A program made the translations under genes and the position numbers. Source: Nannochloropsis salina CCMP1776 (Eukaryota > Sar > Eustigmatophyceae > Eustigmatales > Monodopsidaceae). From it: a stretch of DNA of 64,000 nt. The first letter of the stretch is position 1. Each line of letters begins with the position of its first letter. The notes beneath the pieces are model-generated. The model did not search any database, was not told the origin of the DNA, and saw only the letters and a list, made by a program, of their open reading frames with translations. The DNA lies in assembly GCA_004565275.1 (NCBI GenBank), contig SDOX01000166.1, positions 243,680 to 307,679 on the forward strand, given 5' to 3'. Of the stretch, positions 9,488 to 58,499 are shown piece by piece.

Positions 9488-10630
9488 ATGACCGAGTACA
9501 TTCAGACCGCCATCGCCGCTAAGCCGGCCCTGCACGAGCCTTTGAGCAATTTGGGGGACCTGCACGCCCGCAAACTCTGGCACCAACTCACAGTTGCCCT
9601 CCTGTCTTTTCTCAAAGACACGAATTATGTCCAGCAAGTTGACTTGCGCGCGCTTTACCAAAATTTTATCGTCAAATTTGAGGCTAAATTGAACCCCCTC
9701 CGTCTGGCCGAAGTGGCAGCCACTCTGTCGAAAGCCCTTCTTCCTGATGTGGACGCCGCTCGCGATTTTCTCCAGCAGTTTGAGGAGAAACGAGAACGCT
9801 ACGGTTCGGAAGCTGCCCTGTTCATAGATATGGAGATTGTCTCGCTAAAGCTGCGCCAAGGGGATGTGAGGGAGGTGGAACCCAACCTGAAAGCTGCCAA
9901 GCTGGTGTTGGAGGGACTGACCGGAGCAGATGCGATGGTGTATTCTGCCTACTACAGAGCTGCGTCGGAATACCACAAAATGGTGGGCCCTCCCGAAGCC
10001 TTCTACAAGAACGCACTCATGTACCTAGCCTACACCCCCGTGGAGAGCCTTACGGCAGAGGAGCAGTCCACCCTGGCCGTCGACATCTCCCTAGCCGCCT
10101 TGACCGGGGACGGGGTCTTCAATTTCGGGGAAGTCCTGTCCACGCCCATCCTCTCCGTTCTGGCTCAGGGCGCGCACGCGTGGCTCTCGGAGCTGCTGCA
10201 CGTCTTCGACGCGGGCGACGTGGACCGGTTCGCGGCCCTGGTGGAGAGGCACCGGGAGGAATACTACTCGCAGCCCGCCCTGGTCAACCGGGAGGAGTTC
10301 ATCAAGGAGAAGGTAGTCTTGCTTTCGCTCATAAACCTGGTCTTCGAGACCCCGTCCCACGAGCGGACCATCCCTTTCTCCAAAGTGGCCGCCCGGGGAC
10401 GGATCGGAACAGAGCAGGTGGAGTGGCTGCTGATGCGCGCTATGTCCCTGGGGCTGATCAAGGGGGTCATCGACGAGGTGGCTCAGGACGTGAACGTGTC
10501 ATGGGTACAGCCTCGGGTCCTGAACCAGGAGCAGATCAAGCAGCTGGCCGTAAGACTGGAGGGATGGGGGGGCAAGGTGCAAGAGACGTTGGGTTTCGTG
10601 GAAGAGCAGACGCCCGAGTTGTTTAATTAG
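9488..10630 (+). CDS. PSMD13: 26S proteasome non-ATPase regulatory subunit RPN9/PSMD13
   Basis: Scaffold subunit of the 19S lid that holds the RPN11 deubiquitinase module in the proteasome. One exon of 380 residues against 376 in human PSMD13. The N-terminal helical repeats include HARKLWHQLTVALLSFL, LYQNFIVKFEAKLNPLRLAE and FIDMEIVSLKLRQGD. The PCI domain occupies about residues 190-345 (NREEFIKEKVVLLSLINLVFE, then TIPFSKVAARGRI, then VEWLLMRAMSLGLIKGVID). The C-terminal helix reads PRVLNQEQIKQLAVRLEGW. The start ATG (MTEYIQTAIA) is the only reasonable choice, and all family landmarks are present without truncation. Confidence 0.95.
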   Translation: MTEYIQTAIAAKPALHEPLSNLGDLHARKLWHQLTVALLSFLKDTNYVQQVDLRALYQNFIVKFEAKLNPLRLAEVAATLSKALLPDVDAARDFLQQFEEKRERYGSEAALFIDMEIVSLKLRQGDVREVEPNLKAAKLVLEGLTGADAMVYSAYYRAASEYHKMVGPPEAFYKNALMYLAYTPVESLTAEEQSTLAVDISLAALTGDGVFNFGEVLSTPILSVLAQGAHAWLSELLHVFDAGDVDRFAALVERHREEYYSQPALVNREEFIKEKVVLLSLINLVFETPSHERTIPFSKVAARGRIGTEQVEWLLMRAMSLGLIKGVIDEVAQDVNVSWVQPRVLNQEQIKQLAVRLEGWGGKVQETLGFVEEQTPELFN

Positions 10631-41900: not shown

Positions 41901-43763
41901 ATGTCAGTCATAAAGCAAGGGGAAGACATGAGTATCAATGAGCGGGAATTCATTCTTACGGCGCTAAAGGATGAAAATTGTCGCGCCGATGGCCGGACGC
42001 CTGCGGATACCCGTGAGCTGCGTGTTACTTACGCGCGTGCTGAAGGCCGGGCAACCGCCGAAATTCAGCTGGGTAAGACGCGCGTGCTTACTGTGGTTAC
42101 TAGCGAGCTTACCCCGCCCTATCCTGATCGGCCTGCAGAAGGATTTTTGAACTTGAATGTAGAGTACTCTCCCATGGCAACACTGGGAATCGATAATGCA
42201 CGCACTAATCCGACGTTAGTGGAAGTGGACCGTGTCATTGAGCGGTGCTTGCGTCAAAGCCGTGCACTAGACACAGAGGCACTTTGTGTTATCGCTGGCA
42301 GTAAAGTGTGGTCCTTGCGCTGCGACGTGCGAATCCTAGATGACGCAGGGAATGTTGTGGACGCGGCATGCTTGGCCACAGTCGCAGCGTTGATGCATTT
42401 TCGTCTCCCAGAAGTAACGGTGTTGACTGGAGGCTCAGACGAGAGGAGCAACAGCAGCGCAAACGACGGTAAAAGCAGTGTAGGTCGTGTTCGGGAGGGG
42501 AAAGGCCTGGGGCACGCGTCTGTGGTTGTTCACCACTCCTTCGAGAAGGAGCCGTCCGCCTTGCCCATCCACCACGTTCCCATCTGCGTCACTTTCGTGC
42601 TCTTTAACACGTCTCCTATCGTCTCTGTCATTGACCCTACGGAGCGCGAGGAGCTGGTGATGGGGGGCCGTGTAACTTTTTCAATCAACGTGCACAGAGA
42701 GGTGTGTGCCATGCAGAAGATTGGAGGGCTGGCGCTGGCCCCGACCAGCCTAACGCGGTTGGCAGAGATAGCCATGGAGAAGGTGGGCGACTGGCACTCT
42801 CTCTTAAAGACTTCTTTGGAGGCGGCGGACTCGCAAGCCAAGGCGGAAAGATTGCGATGCGTGCGTGGGACCGCCTCCATGCACGTTCGGAGAGGAGCGC
42901 TGGGAGACGCAGAAGGAGAAAGGGGAGCAAAAGAAGTGGAAGGAGGGGCGGACGCATCTACATCGCAAATCGAGACAGTTCATCTTGATTTTGCAGAGTT
43001 GCACGCACCAATCAAAGTTCGAGAGGAATCGGAGAAGCCGCCTGTCGATGAAGAGGAGGAGACACGTACGTTGAGTGTATTGGAGCAGGCAGCTTTGGAT
43101 GCAGAGGACTACCGAATGAAACAAGGAACCGAAAATTTGACTCAGGGGATACAGGAGACGCAGTTCTCATGGACAGGGGCAGCAACTCGTAACTCAGATA
43201 CAGGAGCTGTCGCAGGGCCTACAGACTCGGTGGTGACTGAAAGCACAGGCGTGAACGACGTGTGTACAGCAGCTTGTCCGGGATCGACTGCCGAAACTGC
43301 GCTTACTTCACATAGGTCGAGCATGGAAACCAAACCAGCAGGAGCTCGTGAGCTAGGGAGAAAAACAAAGACATTGGGGAGAAGAAAGGACGTAAGGAAC
43401 GGAGAGGGTAGGGACACGGAAGAGGAGGACGACGACGAGGAGGGGGATGCCGTCATGATGGTTTCAGAATTTGCATCAAGCAGCGAAAGCAGTCTCGGAT
43501 CCCCTTATGGTAAGACGGCCATTGCAGCGACAGGCTCCAATGCGAGGAGGCCTTCGTCACAGGGCGCCCCGCAGGCGACAGCTACTACTGAGCGAGCTGA
43601 AAACGATGACGAAGAAATTAAAGATTTGAGAGATGCGGTAAAAAAACCACGTGTACGAGGACAGAACGGAAGCTCGAGTGGCCGAGGTGCTGCGAAGCGT
43701 CCCAGTGGTACGTCGAGTAAGGGCACAAGCAAGAGCAGACCGGAAGGAGGCACGAAAAGATAA
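41901..43763 (+). CDS. EXOSC9: Exosome complex component RRP45 (EXOSC9), RNase PH family
   Basis: Structural subunit of the nine-member RNA exosome ring used in 3'-5' RNA decay and rRNA processing. One exon, 620 residues. The RNase PH fold fills residues about 10-300: NEREFILTALKDENCRADGR, AEIQLGKTRVLTVVTSELT, PDRPAEGFLNLNVEYSPMA, VIERCLRQSRALDTEALCVI, WSLRCDVRILDDAGNVVDAA, PICVTFVLF and MQKIGGLALAPTSL. The order and wording match RRP45 rather than RRP42/43. As in other eukaryotic RRP45 proteins, a long C-terminal tail (about 320-620) lacks fold; here it is acidic (EEEDDDEEGDAVMMVSEF) and ends in a basic, Ser/Gly-rich stretch likely to bind RNA or act as a nuclear signal. The first ATG was chosen; another at codon 10 (MSINEREF) is nearer the typical family start. 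Confidence 0.93.
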   Translation: MSVIKQGEDMSINEREFILTALKDENCRADGRTPADTRELRVTYARAEGRATAEIQLGKTRVLTVVTSELTPPYPDRPAEGFLNLNVEYSPMATLGIDNARTNPTLVEVDRVIERCLRQSRALDTEALCVIAGSKVWSLRCDVRILDDAGNVVDAACLATVAALMHFRLPEVTVLTGGSDERSNSSANDGKSSVGRVREGKGLGHASVVVHHSFEKEPSALPIHHVPICVTFVLFNTSPIVSVIDPTEREELVMGGRVTFSINVHREVCAMQKIGGLALAPTSLTRLAEIAMEKVGDWHSLLKTSLEAADSQAKAERLRCVRGTASMHVRRGALGDAEGERGAKEVEGGADASTSQIETVHLDFAELHAPIKVREESEKPPVDEEEETRTLSVLEQAALDAEDYRMKQGTENLTQGIQETQFSWTGAATRNSDTGAVAGPTDSVVTESTGVNDVCTAACPGSTAETALTSHRSSMETKPAGARELGRKTKTLGRRKDVRNGEGRDTEEEDDDEEGDAVMMVSEFASSSESSLGSPYGKTAIAATGSNARRPSSQGAPQATATTERAENDDEEIKDLRDAVKKPRVRGQNGSSSGRGAAKRPSGTSSKGTSKSRPEGGTKR

Positions 43764-44451
43764 AGCGCTCCTGACAACGATTAAAGATCTCGTAGCAGCA
43801 AAATGTCAAATATGAATGGTTTTGTGATTATTTTATATTATGGGTCGCGTCTCGTGTAAGATCTTTCAGCGCACACCAGAAAACGCGGGCCCTGGCCTGG
43901 GAAGGGGGGCTGGCAACCTACCCGGAGGAGAGGGCCCGGTCCCACCCCCGCAAGGCGATGACGAGTCCAACCTGCCTCTGCTTCTTCGTGATTTACCAGC
44001 AACGCCGGCCTTCATGCCGCCGGCGTGACAATTTTGTCCCGTCGGCTCGCGTCAGACCCTTTTGAATACTCAGGAATGGACGAAAGATGGTAGCGTACGC
44101 CATTGTCGCAACTGATTTTGCGAGCAATACCGACGCAACCTCCACCACGTGCGTTGGCGGAGTGAGCGAAAGTCACGGAGATCGACGGGCTGGACGAAGA
44201 TTGACCCGTGGAAAACCATTACCCATCCCATCACGGTTCAGAACATTAAAGGAAACGCTTGTACATTGAACAAATTGTGCCAGCCGTCTGATCGATACAT
44301 TTTCTCTGACTTGAGGGACATCTGACATACCGATCGAGCCGGCTCACGCACGTCATCCCTTGGTCCCGTGCCCTTTATTTCTATCCATCCGCATTATTGA
44401 CATCAAAATCGTGTCACTGAAATTTAAAGAGAACGCACAGGTGAAGGAATC
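43764..44451. promoter_or_regulatory. Intergenic region upstream of the desaturase fusion
   Basis: 3' flank of RRP45 and 5' flank of the desaturase gene. Two short frames (about 60 codons) lack any recognisable feature. No element is assigned. Confidence 0.45.
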
Positions 44452-46896
44452 ATGGCCCTTGATGCCCTTTTGCGGCGTCGGCGGCCACTACCCGGAACCA
44501 GCAGCTCGAAAAATACTCGGTCGCCGTCGCCGCCGCATGGAGGGAGCGTGGGATCTGACATCGAAGATGAGAACATCAAAACCGTTTTAAAAGGGACGCT
44601 AAATTCTGTACACAGCAAACTGGCAGTTGGAAATGCTAGAAAAGATGGGGGAAGTGACGGGTTTACGAGAGGATGGGAGGCGACCCCTCAAGCTGTGGAG
44701 GGCGAGGAAGCCCTCGTAAGCAGGTTGCGGGGCCTGGCCTTGGGCACGGATCGATGGACAGCCTTGCTAGTGGCTCTCTGGGCTCTCCTATTTCTGGCTC
44801 TCGTTGTGAACAAGCAGGAGCTGTGGGTAGTTTTGGCGGGCCTAGTTGCCTACGCCTGCTTCTGCTTCTTGCTGGACGTGGTGGCCATCCCGCCCATCTG
44901 GGACGGGCCCCTCAAGGCCAAGGAGACCGCCCGCCTCTCCAACAGCCTGGTCTGCATCGCGCACGCCCTCGCTATGGGTTTCGCAGCCCTCTTTGGAGCC
45001 TCGGCGATCCTGAAGCTGACCATGACCTGCGGCTTCCTCCTCTTCGACCTCTGGGACAAGACCTGGAAGCGCCTCTACACCTCCCCGCCCTACCGCTTCA
45101 CGCGGGGGATCCCCTACGCCCTCCAAGGCGCCACCACCCTGGTGCTCTCGATCACCGCCATTTGCAAAGGCGTCCCTATCAACGCCGATCTGCTCGTCGG
45201 CATCCCCGCCGCCCATCTTCTGGTCGAGTCAGTGCACGACCTGACGCGGATGTTCGCCTCGGAGAGAGCGCCCCCTCTGGGCCTGGCAAGGGTCACCGAG
45301 ACAGTCGTGCTTTTCCCCGCCCGGCTTCTTCCCCACGCACTCCTCCTTGTCTCCCACATCCTTACCATTCATGCGACCTCCGCCCTCCCCTGCGCCTCAA
45401 CCCCGCCCTCCACCCTACCCGTCCTCAGCACCTGGTGGGCGACTCGCGTGATGACCGTCCTGCTCGTCATGCTCAACGCCTCCAACCTTGCCTCTCTATT
45501 CTGGCCCGCCTTCCTTCGGCAGCGTTTCCTCGCCCAGCACCGTCTTCAGCCTCGACAAGGACACGAGCAGCGGCCAGGAGCCGCCCTCCCGCCCCTCCCC
45601 CCCCCCCCGTCCTCGCTCTGGTTTGTTCACGGTGAGGCCTATGATCTGTCTCCCTTCCTCTGTAAACATCCAGGAGGCTCCCACGCCCTGCGCTTGGGCC
45701 AAGGCCGCGACTGCACGGCTCTCTTCGAAAGCTATCACCCCTTCACCGAGCGCCACCGGCAGATCCTAGCGAAGCACCGCGTGGCCGTGGAGGAGACCGT
45801 GCTGGACGCGTACTGCCTGGGGGGCGGGGCGCGGGGACAGGGGCGGGGTAAGGACGTGTTCTACGAGACGTTGAAGAGGAGGGTGGCGGCGGCGATGGCG
45901 GGCGTGGACGTGGTCGCCTCCTGGAAGCGACGGGCCTACTACCTGCTGGTGCTCCTGGCCGTCCTCATCTCCTACCGCGGCTTCCTCCAGGGGCACTGGT
46001 CGGCCCTGCTTGTCTTCTCTCTCTCCTCCTGGCTCCTTGGCGCGATGGGCCACGACGGCTCGCACTTCGCGTGCTCCCATCGGCCCGGGGTCAACCGGCT
46101 CTGCGGCCTCGGCATCTCCCTGATCGCCTCTCCCTTCCTCTGGTACCATCAGCATACCTTCGCGCACCACTCCTTCACCAACGACTTCGACCACGACCCC
46201 GACCTCCACCACTTCGTTCTGACGCGGCCGCACGCCCGGCAGCCCCGCGGGCCCCATCACGCGCTCCAGCAGTTCCGGCTCTACGTGCTCGCCCAGTACG
46301 CGGTGGTCGTCTTCGGCGAGACCGTCTGGATCCCCCTCAAGCTCCTCTGCTTCCGGACCCTGCACGGGGTTATGGCCTTCCCCAACATTGGGTGGGACGG
46401 TCTGGCCCGGGCGCTCGCCCACTTCGTCCTGTACTACCTGCTCGTCTTCCACGCGCCGGCTCGGTGCTTGGCCGAGGCCGGCGAGGGCGCTTACAAGGCA
46501 TGGGCGTTCCCCTTGCTTTACGTGTCGATATGCGGCATGCTCTTCGGGGTTTTCTCGCAAATCAACCACTTGAACGAGAAGAGCATCGCTGCGGCTCGAG
46601 GAGGCTCAGGGCACGAAGGGAAGAAGGGGCGGACCGGGGGGTCCTCCTGGGCCAAGGAGCAAGTGGAGACCTCCTCCAATTTCGCGACGCACTCGCCTTG
46701 GTGGTTCGTCCTGTCTAATGGGTTGAACTTCCAAATTGAGCATCATCTTTTTCCAGGTATCAACCATGAGCACCTATGGAGGGTCCAGCCAGTGGTGAAG
46801 GAGGCATGCAAGGAGTTTGGCGTCAATTACAAGAGCTATGAAAGCATCATGGAAATCGTGTGGGAAACAGCTCAATACTACAAGTCATTGGCGTGA
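44452..46896 (+). CDS. TLC-domain / cytochrome b5 / front-end desaturase fusion protein
   Basis: A single uninterrupted 814-residue frame. Residues 1-95 are polar. Residues about 98-370 carry six to eight hydrophobic helices resembling a TLC (TRAM-LAG1-CLN8) domain: LSNSLVCIAHALAMGFAALF, CGFLLFDLWD, LARVTETVVLFPARLLPHAL and VMLNASNLASLFWPAF. A proline-rich linker follows, then a cytochrome b5 domain with the haem-binding HPGG at 406-409. The desaturase has three histidine boxes: H534-D-G-S-H538, HTFAHH (568-573, in WYHQHTFAHHSFTN) and QIEHH (761-765). The glutamine in box three and the N-terminal b5 are hallmarks of front-end (delta-4/5/6/8) and sphingolipid desaturases; the HxxxHH box two resembles protist delta-5/delta-4 enzymes. 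It should act in the ER on an acyl lipid. Substrate and regiospecificity cannot be read from sequence. The N-terminal TLC fusion is unusual. Confidence 0.88.
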   Translation: MALDALLRRRRPLPGTSSSKNTRSPSPPHGGSVGSDIEDENIKTVLKGTLNSVHSKLAVGNARKDGGSDGFTRGWEATPQAVEGEEALVSRLRGLALGTDRWTALLVALWALLFLALVVNKQELWVVLAGLVAYACFCFLLDVVAIPPIWDGPLKAKETARLSNSLVCIAHALAMGFAALFGASAILKLTMTCGFLLFDLWDKTWKRLYTSPPYRFTRGIPYALQGATTLVLSITAICKGVPINADLLVGIPAAHLLVESVHDLTRMFASERAPPLGLARVTETVVLFPARLLPHALLLVSHILTIHATSALPCASTPPSTLPVLSTWWATRVMTVLLVMLNASNLASLFWPAFLRQRFLAQHRLQPRQGHEQRPGAALPPLPPPPSSLWFVHGEAYDLSPFLCKHPGGSHALRLGQGRDCTALFESYHPFTERHRQILAKHRVAVEETVLDAYCLGGGARGQGRGKDVFYETLKRRVAAAMAGVDVVASWKRRAYYLLVLLAVLISYRGFLQGHWSALLVFSLSSWLLGAMGHDGSHFACSHRPGVNRLCGLGISLIASPFLWYHQHTFAHHSFTNDFDHDPDLHHFVLTRPHARQPRGPHHALQQFRLYVLAQYAVVVFGETVWIPLKLLCFRTLHGVMAFPNIGWDGLARALAHFVLYYLLVFHAPARCLAEAGEGAYKAWAFPLLYVSICGMLFGVFSQINHLNEKSIAAARGGSGHEGKKGRTGGSSWAKEQVETSSNFATHSPWWFVLSNGLNFQIEHHLFPGINHEHLWRVQPVVKEACKEFGVNYKSYESIMEIVWETAQYYKSLA

Positions 46897-47889
46897 GTGT
46901 GCAGGGTTGGGAAGGAGGAAGTTGTTTCATTATCTTCGTTACATAGGAGGGAGACTGGAGAAGTGACGCAAAGCAAGAGCTGGATCCTCAACGCGCTTAA
47001 ATGTGTCGTAAGGGACGATCTTTTTTATGTTTATGGGGCATAATCTACCACCATCATGTAAGCTGAGGGCAAATTTTGGATAGCAACAAATAGGAGAGTG
47101 AGCGGAAAGGTTCTTGCATGCAAGATTAGCAGCCGGAAAAGGGTTCTTACACGGGAGGAAGCCACCTTCTCCTGTTGAGCTCGTATATGATGGCGTAGTC
47201 TACGGACCCCAAAAAACAGGATGGGAAAATAAAAAACCAACTTATTGAAGGATTTTCGTTCGAAAGAAACGAGCACAACCTTACCAACGTAAATTTATTA
47301 CAAAAGTAAGAGCTCACGGCCAAAAATATCAGATGACATATGGGCCATAAAGGCCTGCCGCTGAACCACCTCCCCCATATGCGTCCAGGACCACGTCCTC
47401 TCTCTTTCCTCTTCGCCCCGCCTTCATCCGTCCGAGGCTTCGCAATGTGCGCCCACGGAAACTCCTATCGCTTGTTATATCCTGCCCATTCCTGTCTTGG
47501 TCTGCTCATCCGTCTTCTCTCGGATGGGGCGAGGACGCACGTTTTCCCAGAATGTGCCGCCGCTTCCTTCTATGACCTGCCCCCCCTTTGCTGCGTACCT
47601 CGGGCCCCAAGTCTACGTCGTGAAACGCCGTACTTCCTCTCCTTTATTCTTTGGCTAAGTTTCTGCGAGGAGAAATGTGCGCGATTTAAGAATTCCCAGC
47701 CACTTGACTGACAACCACCCATCGGGCCGTGCCCCCCCCCTCCTTGGCCCCTCCCCCTTCAACAGCAACTGCTTTCGTGGCCGCCGCCGCGCTTCTCACC
47801 CTGCAACTCACGCTCTTTGCGCATTCCTTGTCATCGTTACACATACGTCACACACAAATAGCCAATACTTCCTGTGGACGCACCCAGCT
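46897..47889. other. Intergenic region between desaturase and transporter genes
   Basis: About 1 kb. Frames of up to 123 codons on either strand show no family resemblance. It contains the desaturase 3' flank and the promoter of the SLC35B1-like gene. Confidence 0.5.
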
Positions 47890-49446
47890 ATGGCGGGGAA
47901 CACTTTGAAAGACATTTGCGTTTGTGGTAGGTGGAGCGGTAGGAGGGAGGCTTGAAGTTGGCAAGTCAGGGAAGCGTGACGGTGCTCATTGTGATGAATG
48001 CGAATTGAGCAAGCGCTTCCGCCTAGGTTGTACGATATAAGTATGATCTTTGTCATAAGACGTCACAAGAGCTTAAAGATATGTTTGAAATGGGAAAACA
48101 AGAGAGGAGAATCCTCGAAGCCGTGCTCCGGCATGAAGTGGTAGACATCGCGAGTAGCGTATTCGCTTCTCTCGACCGGACGGCTAAGCCATTGTAGTTG
48201 GTTTTTTCTCGGAAATGAAGTGTTTAGGGGACGTCCAGCTTTATTGGGGAATACCAGAGATAGACTTGAAAAGTTGTCATCGTGTGCTCTTTTCTCCTCC
48301 CCCCACCTAGGCCCCAAGATCCTTCTTCCCTTCCTTGGGGGAGCAGTCGCAGCCCTCATTGCCGTCTATGCAGACTGGGCAATCTTCAAGCGCCGGGCCG
48401 GACCCGGAGGCAAGGGCAATGAGAAGCAAGAAAAAGAGAAGGGAGGCCTCAGCCTTGATGCCTTGCCTAGCGAGGTCAAGCTCCTCATATGTGCTGGCGG
48501 CATCTACGCCTCCTACCTGACGTTCGGGGTCTTGCAGGAGCAGATTTTCAAGTACCGGGGCCCGCAAGGAGAGCGTTTCACGGCCACGCTCTTCCTCCTC
48601 TGGGTCCAGTGCCTGGTGAACGCCCTCTTCGCCCTGGCCTTCATGCTCGCCGGGTCGCGGAGCTCACAGAAGATTCCCCTTTTCAACTTTGGCCTGACTG
48701 GCACGTCCTATATCCTGGCGATGCTCTTCTCGAACGAGGCGCTCAAGTACGTCTCCTACCCGACGCAGGCGCTGGGCAAGTCCTGCAAAATGGTGCCGGT
48801 CATGCTCTTCGGGGTGCTGATCCGCGGGAAGAAGTATCGGCCGATCGAGTACTTTTGCGTGTTCCTGGTGACCCTGGGCATCACCATGTTTCAGCTCTAT
48901 GGAGGAAAGAAGAAGGGTGGCCACGGAAGCGGGAAAGCAGAGGAGGGGGACTCTTTGTACGGCGTGCTGCTGCTTCTGCTCTCCCTGGTGATGGACGGGG
49001 TGACGGGGGCGGTCCAGGACAAGCTGAAGACGATATGCAGGCCCACGGTGCACGAGTTCATGTTCTACACAAACATGGCCGGCGTCCTCGTCTGCTCCGT
49101 CCTTGTCCTCCCCACGGGCCAATTCATCCAGGGCACCCGCTTCTGCCTCGAGCACCCCGCCCTCTTCTCCACCATGGCCTGGCTCTCCCTCACCTCGGCC
49201 CTGGGTCAGAACTTCATCTTCCTGACCATCAAGTACTTCGACGCGCTCGTCCTGACCACGGTGACTACCACCCGCAAGTTCTTCACCATCCTAGTGTCCG
49301 TGGTCATGTACGGGCACGCCCTCAACAGCAAGCAGTGGCTGTCGGTGCTCTTGGTATTCTGCGGCCTCAGCGGGGAGGTTTATGACAAGTACGAGAAGAA
49401 GAAGGCGCAGCGAGCGAAGATGGCTCTGGAGGGAAAAAAGAAATGA
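47890..49446 (+). CDS. SLC35B1: SLC35B1/HUT1-type nucleotide-sugar (or ATP/ADP) transporter
   Basis: Multi-pass ER membrane transporter of the SLC35B family. Two exons: a tiny first exon of 37 nt at 47890-47926 (MAGNTLKDICVC) and 48311-49446. They join in phase at a Gly codon across a 384-nt GT-AG intron, giving 390 residues. About ten hydrophobic helices are visible. Family blocks include LICAGGIYASYLTFGVLQEQ, FNFGLTGTSYILAMLFSNEA, LKYVSYPTQALGKSCKMVPV, YFCVFLVTLGITMFQLYGGK, LLSLVMDGVTGAVQDKLK and FDALVLTTVTTTRKFFTILV. These match SLC35B1/UDP-galactose transporter HUT1 better than the Golgi PAPS transporters SLC35B2/B3, which are the alternative. The lysine-rich C-terminus (EGKKK) is compatible with ER retrieval but is not a strict KKxx. 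A Lys/Glu/Gly-rich loop interrupts the first third. Confidence 0.9.

Positions 49447-56332: not shown

Positions 56333-58499
<2,167 letters not shown>

Follow-up and report, generated by a model that had tools for sequence, protein, structure and literature searches.

We describe a predicted single protein in the 64,000-nt window (the whole stretch of DNA that was analysed) whose sequence supports a cytochrome b5 front-end desaturase that carries a large additional membrane domain (Table 1). On balance, we lean slightly towards reading it as a single-chain integral membrane front-end desaturase in which the extra N-terminal domain handles or presents lipid.

An 814-residue frame and its two halves

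Starting at ATG and ending at TGA, the frame contains 814 sense codons and no internal stop, which confirms at its exact coordinates the single uninterrupted frame called in the first-pass annotation. When the 3.5 kb around it (44001–47500) were shuffled 300 times, no ORF exceeded 332 aa, compared with the 814 aa found. The two halves share their codon usage (correlation 0.87) and are both coding-like, with GC3 values of 0.81 (N-terminal) and 0.835 (C-terminal); GC3 is reduced in the first 100 residues and from around residue 751 onward. Codon usage also correlates with that of the downstream UAA-type transporter gene at 48220–49446 (0.88 for the N-terminal half, 0.87 for the C-terminal half), compared with 0.03 and 0.01, respectively, for the upstream RNase PH-type gene at 41901–43763. 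Neither adjoining gene suggests a link to lipids.

Table 1 Features of the 814-residue frame and their positions in the window.
Feature	Position	Strand	Basis or remark
Complete ORF, 814 aa	44452..46896	+	Frame scan; closest upstream in-frame stop at 44425
Residues 1–98, without predicted membrane helix, GC3 about 0.52–0.58	44452..44745	+	Hydropathy, GC3
Candidate intron (GTAAG donor, TAG acceptor), 102 nt	44716–44817	+	Splicing would delete first predicted membrane helix
Residues 100–345, predicted multi-helix membrane domain, about eight helices	44749..45486	+	Hydropathy and low-confidence models
Residues 151–360, possible six-helix TLC core, without HH	44902..45531	+	Weak local profile for; whole-core alignment weak and mostly against; Pfam negative
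Linker, residues 361–385, basic then proline-rich	45532..45606	+	Occupies expected start of b5 domain
Cytochrome b5 domain, residues 388–445	45613..45786	+	Pfam Cyt-b5, profile positions 13–71 of 74
Candidate introns, shared donor	45632–45673, 45632–45769	+	Splicing would cut out part of b5 domain
FA_desaturase domain, residues 516–795	45997..46836	+	Pfam, E 8.6e-24
His box 1, HDGSH, residues 534–538	46051..46065	+	Motif scan
His box 2, HTFAHH, residues 568–573	46153..46170	+	Motif scan
His box 3, QIEHH, residues 761–765	46732..46746	+	Motif scan; Gln form

Judged by its domains and motifs, the C-terminal half is a b5 front-end desaturase, as had been proposed. Both Pfam matches lie well above their cut-offs (Cyt-b5, 46.4 bits against 23.7, E 4.1e-12; FA_desaturase, 85.1 bits against 29.7), and the HPGG motif of the b5 domain, at residue 406, is present together with all three His boxes. 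H406 and H429, paired by alignment, are the likely haem ligands. The glutamine in the third box is described as characteristic of front-end desaturases (PMC5785352). Among three comparison desaturases, which are too few to fix the substrate, Mortierella delta-5 was the closest (25.8% identical across 431 columns, E 8.6e-32), ahead of a diatom delta-5 (E 7.9e-21) and a plant sphingolipid delta-8 (E 1.1e-20). The protein has in common with the delta-5, delta-6 and sphingolipid delta-8 enzymes a b5 domain ahead of FA_desaturase, HPGG and three His boxes of which the third is of the Gln type, whereas it differs from them in carrying around 385 extra residues upstream, with about eight predicted helices, and in leaving the usual b5 start unmatched. 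A tblastn search with the whole protein (E 1e-5) returned eight plasmid and two phage records, which match from residue 512 onward only.

The N-terminal half is best read as a multi-helix membrane domain. Hydropathy agrees with low-confidence helix assignments in placing about eight helices within residues 100–345, and a PDB sequence search with this half returned no entry. Under the eight-helix model, for which we set the helix bounds ourselves, loops on the b5 side carry 2, 2, 3, 3 and 5 lysines plus arginines, against 1, 0, 1 and 0 on the other side. Acidic residues are also more numerous on the b5 side (3, 2, 0, 1 and 1, against 0, 0, 0 and 0), which leaves a weaker net charge bias than the basic residues by themselves would indicate; the bias is suggestive only.

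The junction between the two halves

The sequence supports the proposed in-frame link between a b5 front-end desaturase and a multi-helix membrane domain. In-frame methionines occur at residues 334 and 340 and then at 482, with none between 340 and 482, so the linker would offer a b5-desaturase no ATG of its own; translation might start separately at Met 334 or Met 340, or from a non-ATG codon. Given the lack of in-frame methionines from 340 to 482 and a linker without a stop, one protein is the simplest reading.

The two halves might instead owe their continuity to the gene model, with two adjacent genes or an intron meaning that they are not one protein in the cell. This is eukaryotic DNA, and a search limited to GTRAG donors with YAG acceptors found three such donors in the ORF. 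Two of these are followed at 40–700 nt by in-frame acceptors and give the candidate introns in Table 1. The b5 domain also lacks its first 12 profile positions, in line with this explanation. We nevertheless consider this explanation improbable, because the frame stays open with coding-like GC3 through the junction and no in-frame methionine lies between 340 and 482.

The Mortierella delta-5 enzyme matches the b5 profile from position 1, whereas the match here lacks positions 1–12. Within 45532–45640, a proline-rich linker lies where these positions are missing, and the fusion may have put other sequence in place of the beginning of the b5 fold.

Possible relation of the N-terminal domain to the TLC family

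The first-pass annotation had assigned the N-terminal domain to the TLC family. Pfam, run with a limit of E 10 (HMMER's filters discard most matches above about 0.1) on the whole protein and on three cuts of the N-terminal half, detected neither TLC (PF03798) nor any other N-terminal family, and all six TLC proteins given to it as positive controls scored 35.4–144 bits. Structure models folded without relatives were unusable, with a mean pLDDT of 43.5 for the whole protein and 49.0 for residues 96–368. A Foldseek search with the latter gave no match with E <0.001 and no TLC structure among the best 50 of 211, a list that amounts to noise.

Small TLC profiles gave a different picture at the local level. 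The TLC hypothesis was drawn from the same sequence that these profiles were used on, and the counts that follow are uncorrected for the use of several profiles. With hmmsearch, the domain scored 7.0, 6.9 and 6.0 bits against three such profiles, values matched by 6, 2 and 2 of 1,000 shuffles that kept the residue class at each position and by none of 35 decoys (33 Escherichia coli multi-helix ORFs, the window's transporter and the protein's own desaturase half). Against plain composition shuffles, it ranked first of 498, first of 490 and, with the third profile, second of 445 (504 targets given). The hhalign score of 27.3 with a TLCD-like profile, from a match spanning residues 154–202, was reached by none of 300 shuffles and none of the 35 decoys; with an all-TLC profile, 2 of 300 shuffles and 4 of 35 decoys scored at or above the query. 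The probabilities that hhalign itself assigned were low: 8.8% with the TLCD-like profile, 1.2% with the all-TLC profile and 1.5% with TLCD4 and TLCD1. In a longer, low-probability alignment with TLCD4 and TLCD1, D199 (in GFLLFD), E259 (in LLVES) and R291 (in LFPARLLPH), the residues of interest in the possible TLC core, fall in register with the Asp, Glu and Arg of TLCD4. Single-sequence phmmer placed the protein's own desaturase half first, TLCD4 second and TLCD1 fourth of 39 scored sequences (42 given), with the other five TLC proteins at ranks 12 to 35.

Forcing the alignment across the whole TLC core, with columns defined by TLCD4 (itself not left out), gave z values of only 1.5 (TLCD-like) and 2.1 (all). 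The TLCD-like score was reached by 70 of 1,000 shuffles and 62 of 277 real membrane windows, and the all-TLC score by 24 of 1,000 and 35 of 277. Among controls left out of the profile, TLCD1, TLCD3B and CLN8 reached z 4.8–9.9 and TRAM1 only 1.0; LAG1 and LAC1 reached about 13, each with the other still in the profile. In the corresponding local leave-one-out, TLCD4, TLCD1, TLCD3B and CLN8 scored 13–30 bits, and the true members LAG1, LAC1 and TRAM1 fell below zero, so a remote TLC member can escape a small profile of this kind.

The TLC assignment is therefore unproven: a weak local profile preference speaks for it, whereas the missing Pfam match and the weak whole-core alignment speak against it. 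The profile search that the first-pass annotation had named as a possible refutation goes part of the way against the assignment: Pfam misses the domain, but the tests applied could also miss a remote member. We regard membership in the family as possible, with doubt slightly in the lead. For a TLC-like domain, proteins of the TLCD group would make a better comparison than the ceramide synthases. The N-terminal domain resembles TLCD1, TLCD2 and TLCD4-type proteins (PF03798) in its multiple helices, in the Asp, Glu and Arg register with TLCD4 (at low probability) and in the weak local preference, but differs in having no PF03798 match, no HH and a weak whole-core alignment. To the ceramide synthases LAG1 and LAC1, by contrast, the likeness is limited to a multi-helix membrane domain, and the phmmer scores are negative (−2.8 and −2.5 bits, respectively).

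The main alternative is that the N-terminal half is some other membrane domain, which only anchors, oligomerizes or localizes an ordinary front-end desaturase. The lack of a Pfam or PDB sequence match, a whole-core TLC alignment near noise and hhalign probabilities of 1.2–8.8% all agree with this. Local TLC-profile scores that exceed most shuffles and all 35 decoys, together with the register of the three charged residues with TLCD4 in the low-probability alignment, argue against it, and we judge a non-TLC domain of this kind unlikely, if still worth weighing. A bifunctional enzyme joining a ceramide synthase to a sphingolipid desaturase would accommodate the TLC-like hints and the presence of sphingolipid enzymes in the desaturase family. 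Residues 1–387 contain no HH, part of the Lag1 motif of ceramide synthases, as the first reading had noted, and this absence disfavours ceramide synthesis; the plant sphingolipid delta-8 also scores below the fungal delta-5. We therefore share the earlier doubt about synthase activity and think a bifunctional enzyme highly improbable.

Possible function, relatives and surroundings

From what its family does, the protein would probably be located in the endoplasmic reticulum, where a b5 reductase would supply electrons to the di-iron site by way of the fused b5 domain, and the new double bond would be placed on the carboxyl side of an existing one in the acyl chain. More tentatively, the N-terminal domain may have about eight helices with both ends cytosolic, an arrangement that would keep the b5 domain in the cytosol. 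It could be a TLCD-type TLC domain that has diverged strongly and that binds the lipid substrate or presents it; alternatively, it might restrict which lipids receive the product. We infer that a TLCD-like domain would choose the lipid for the desaturase. In its fullest form, this proposal has a diverged TLCD-type domain, fused to the b5 front-end desaturase, selecting or presenting a membrane lipid whose acyl chain is desaturated in place, and thereby coupling PUFA synthesis to membrane composition, which we hold to be rather unlikely as a whole. The coupled lipid sensing or acyl transfer suggested earlier is a guess.

Animal TLCD proteins offer a limited analogy. FLD-1 and TLCD1/2 are reported to limit the incorporation of PUFAs into phospholipids and not PUFA synthesis (PMC6279351). 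According to the same paper, FLD-1 is on plasma membranes and does not act through raised desaturases, yet its effect needs desaturase activity, and TLCD2 works independently of FADS2 (PMC6279351). On these findings, the animal analogy does not predict a fusion. Were both a TLC-like domain and the fusion confirmed, the protein would link PUFA-making enzymes to a family that is still poorly understood and that has one branch limiting PUFAs in membrane phospholipids (PMC6279351), and would provide a natural construct for probing the role of a TLCD domain. If the N-terminal domain is a mere anchor, the protein would be an unusual desaturase of local interest.

Viral contigs were scanned with each half of the protein, with LAG1 and with the TLCD and desaturase alignments, and no relative appeared; scans of genome contigs with the C-terminal half or the TLCD alignment also found none; and LAG1 had no match among phage sequences. 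The contig scans require a short peptide pattern to match first and reach mainly close relatives, and the collections searched comprise prokaryotes, viruses and plasmids, so that absence from them says nothing about algae. A literature search returned no paper whose title points to a fusion of a TLC domain with a desaturase, and none that pairs a TLC domain with Nannochloropsis or with a front-end desaturase, a lipid-sensing domain with an algal desaturase, or domain fusion with a cytochrome b5 desaturase of stramenopiles, although the architecture may still be published or present in protein databases, and the available part of PMC3853752 contains nothing on this protein.

Across the 64,000-nt window, Rfam (at the gathering score) and tRNA scans gave no matches. 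A glycosyl hydrolase family 1 protein is encoded around 10 kb downstream of the desaturase frame, at 57045–58499 on the reverse strand (Pfam E 9.8e-144). A PSD13-type proteasome regulatory subunit (9488–10630, forward strand; Pfam E 2.1e-58) provides a eukaryotic marker within the window.
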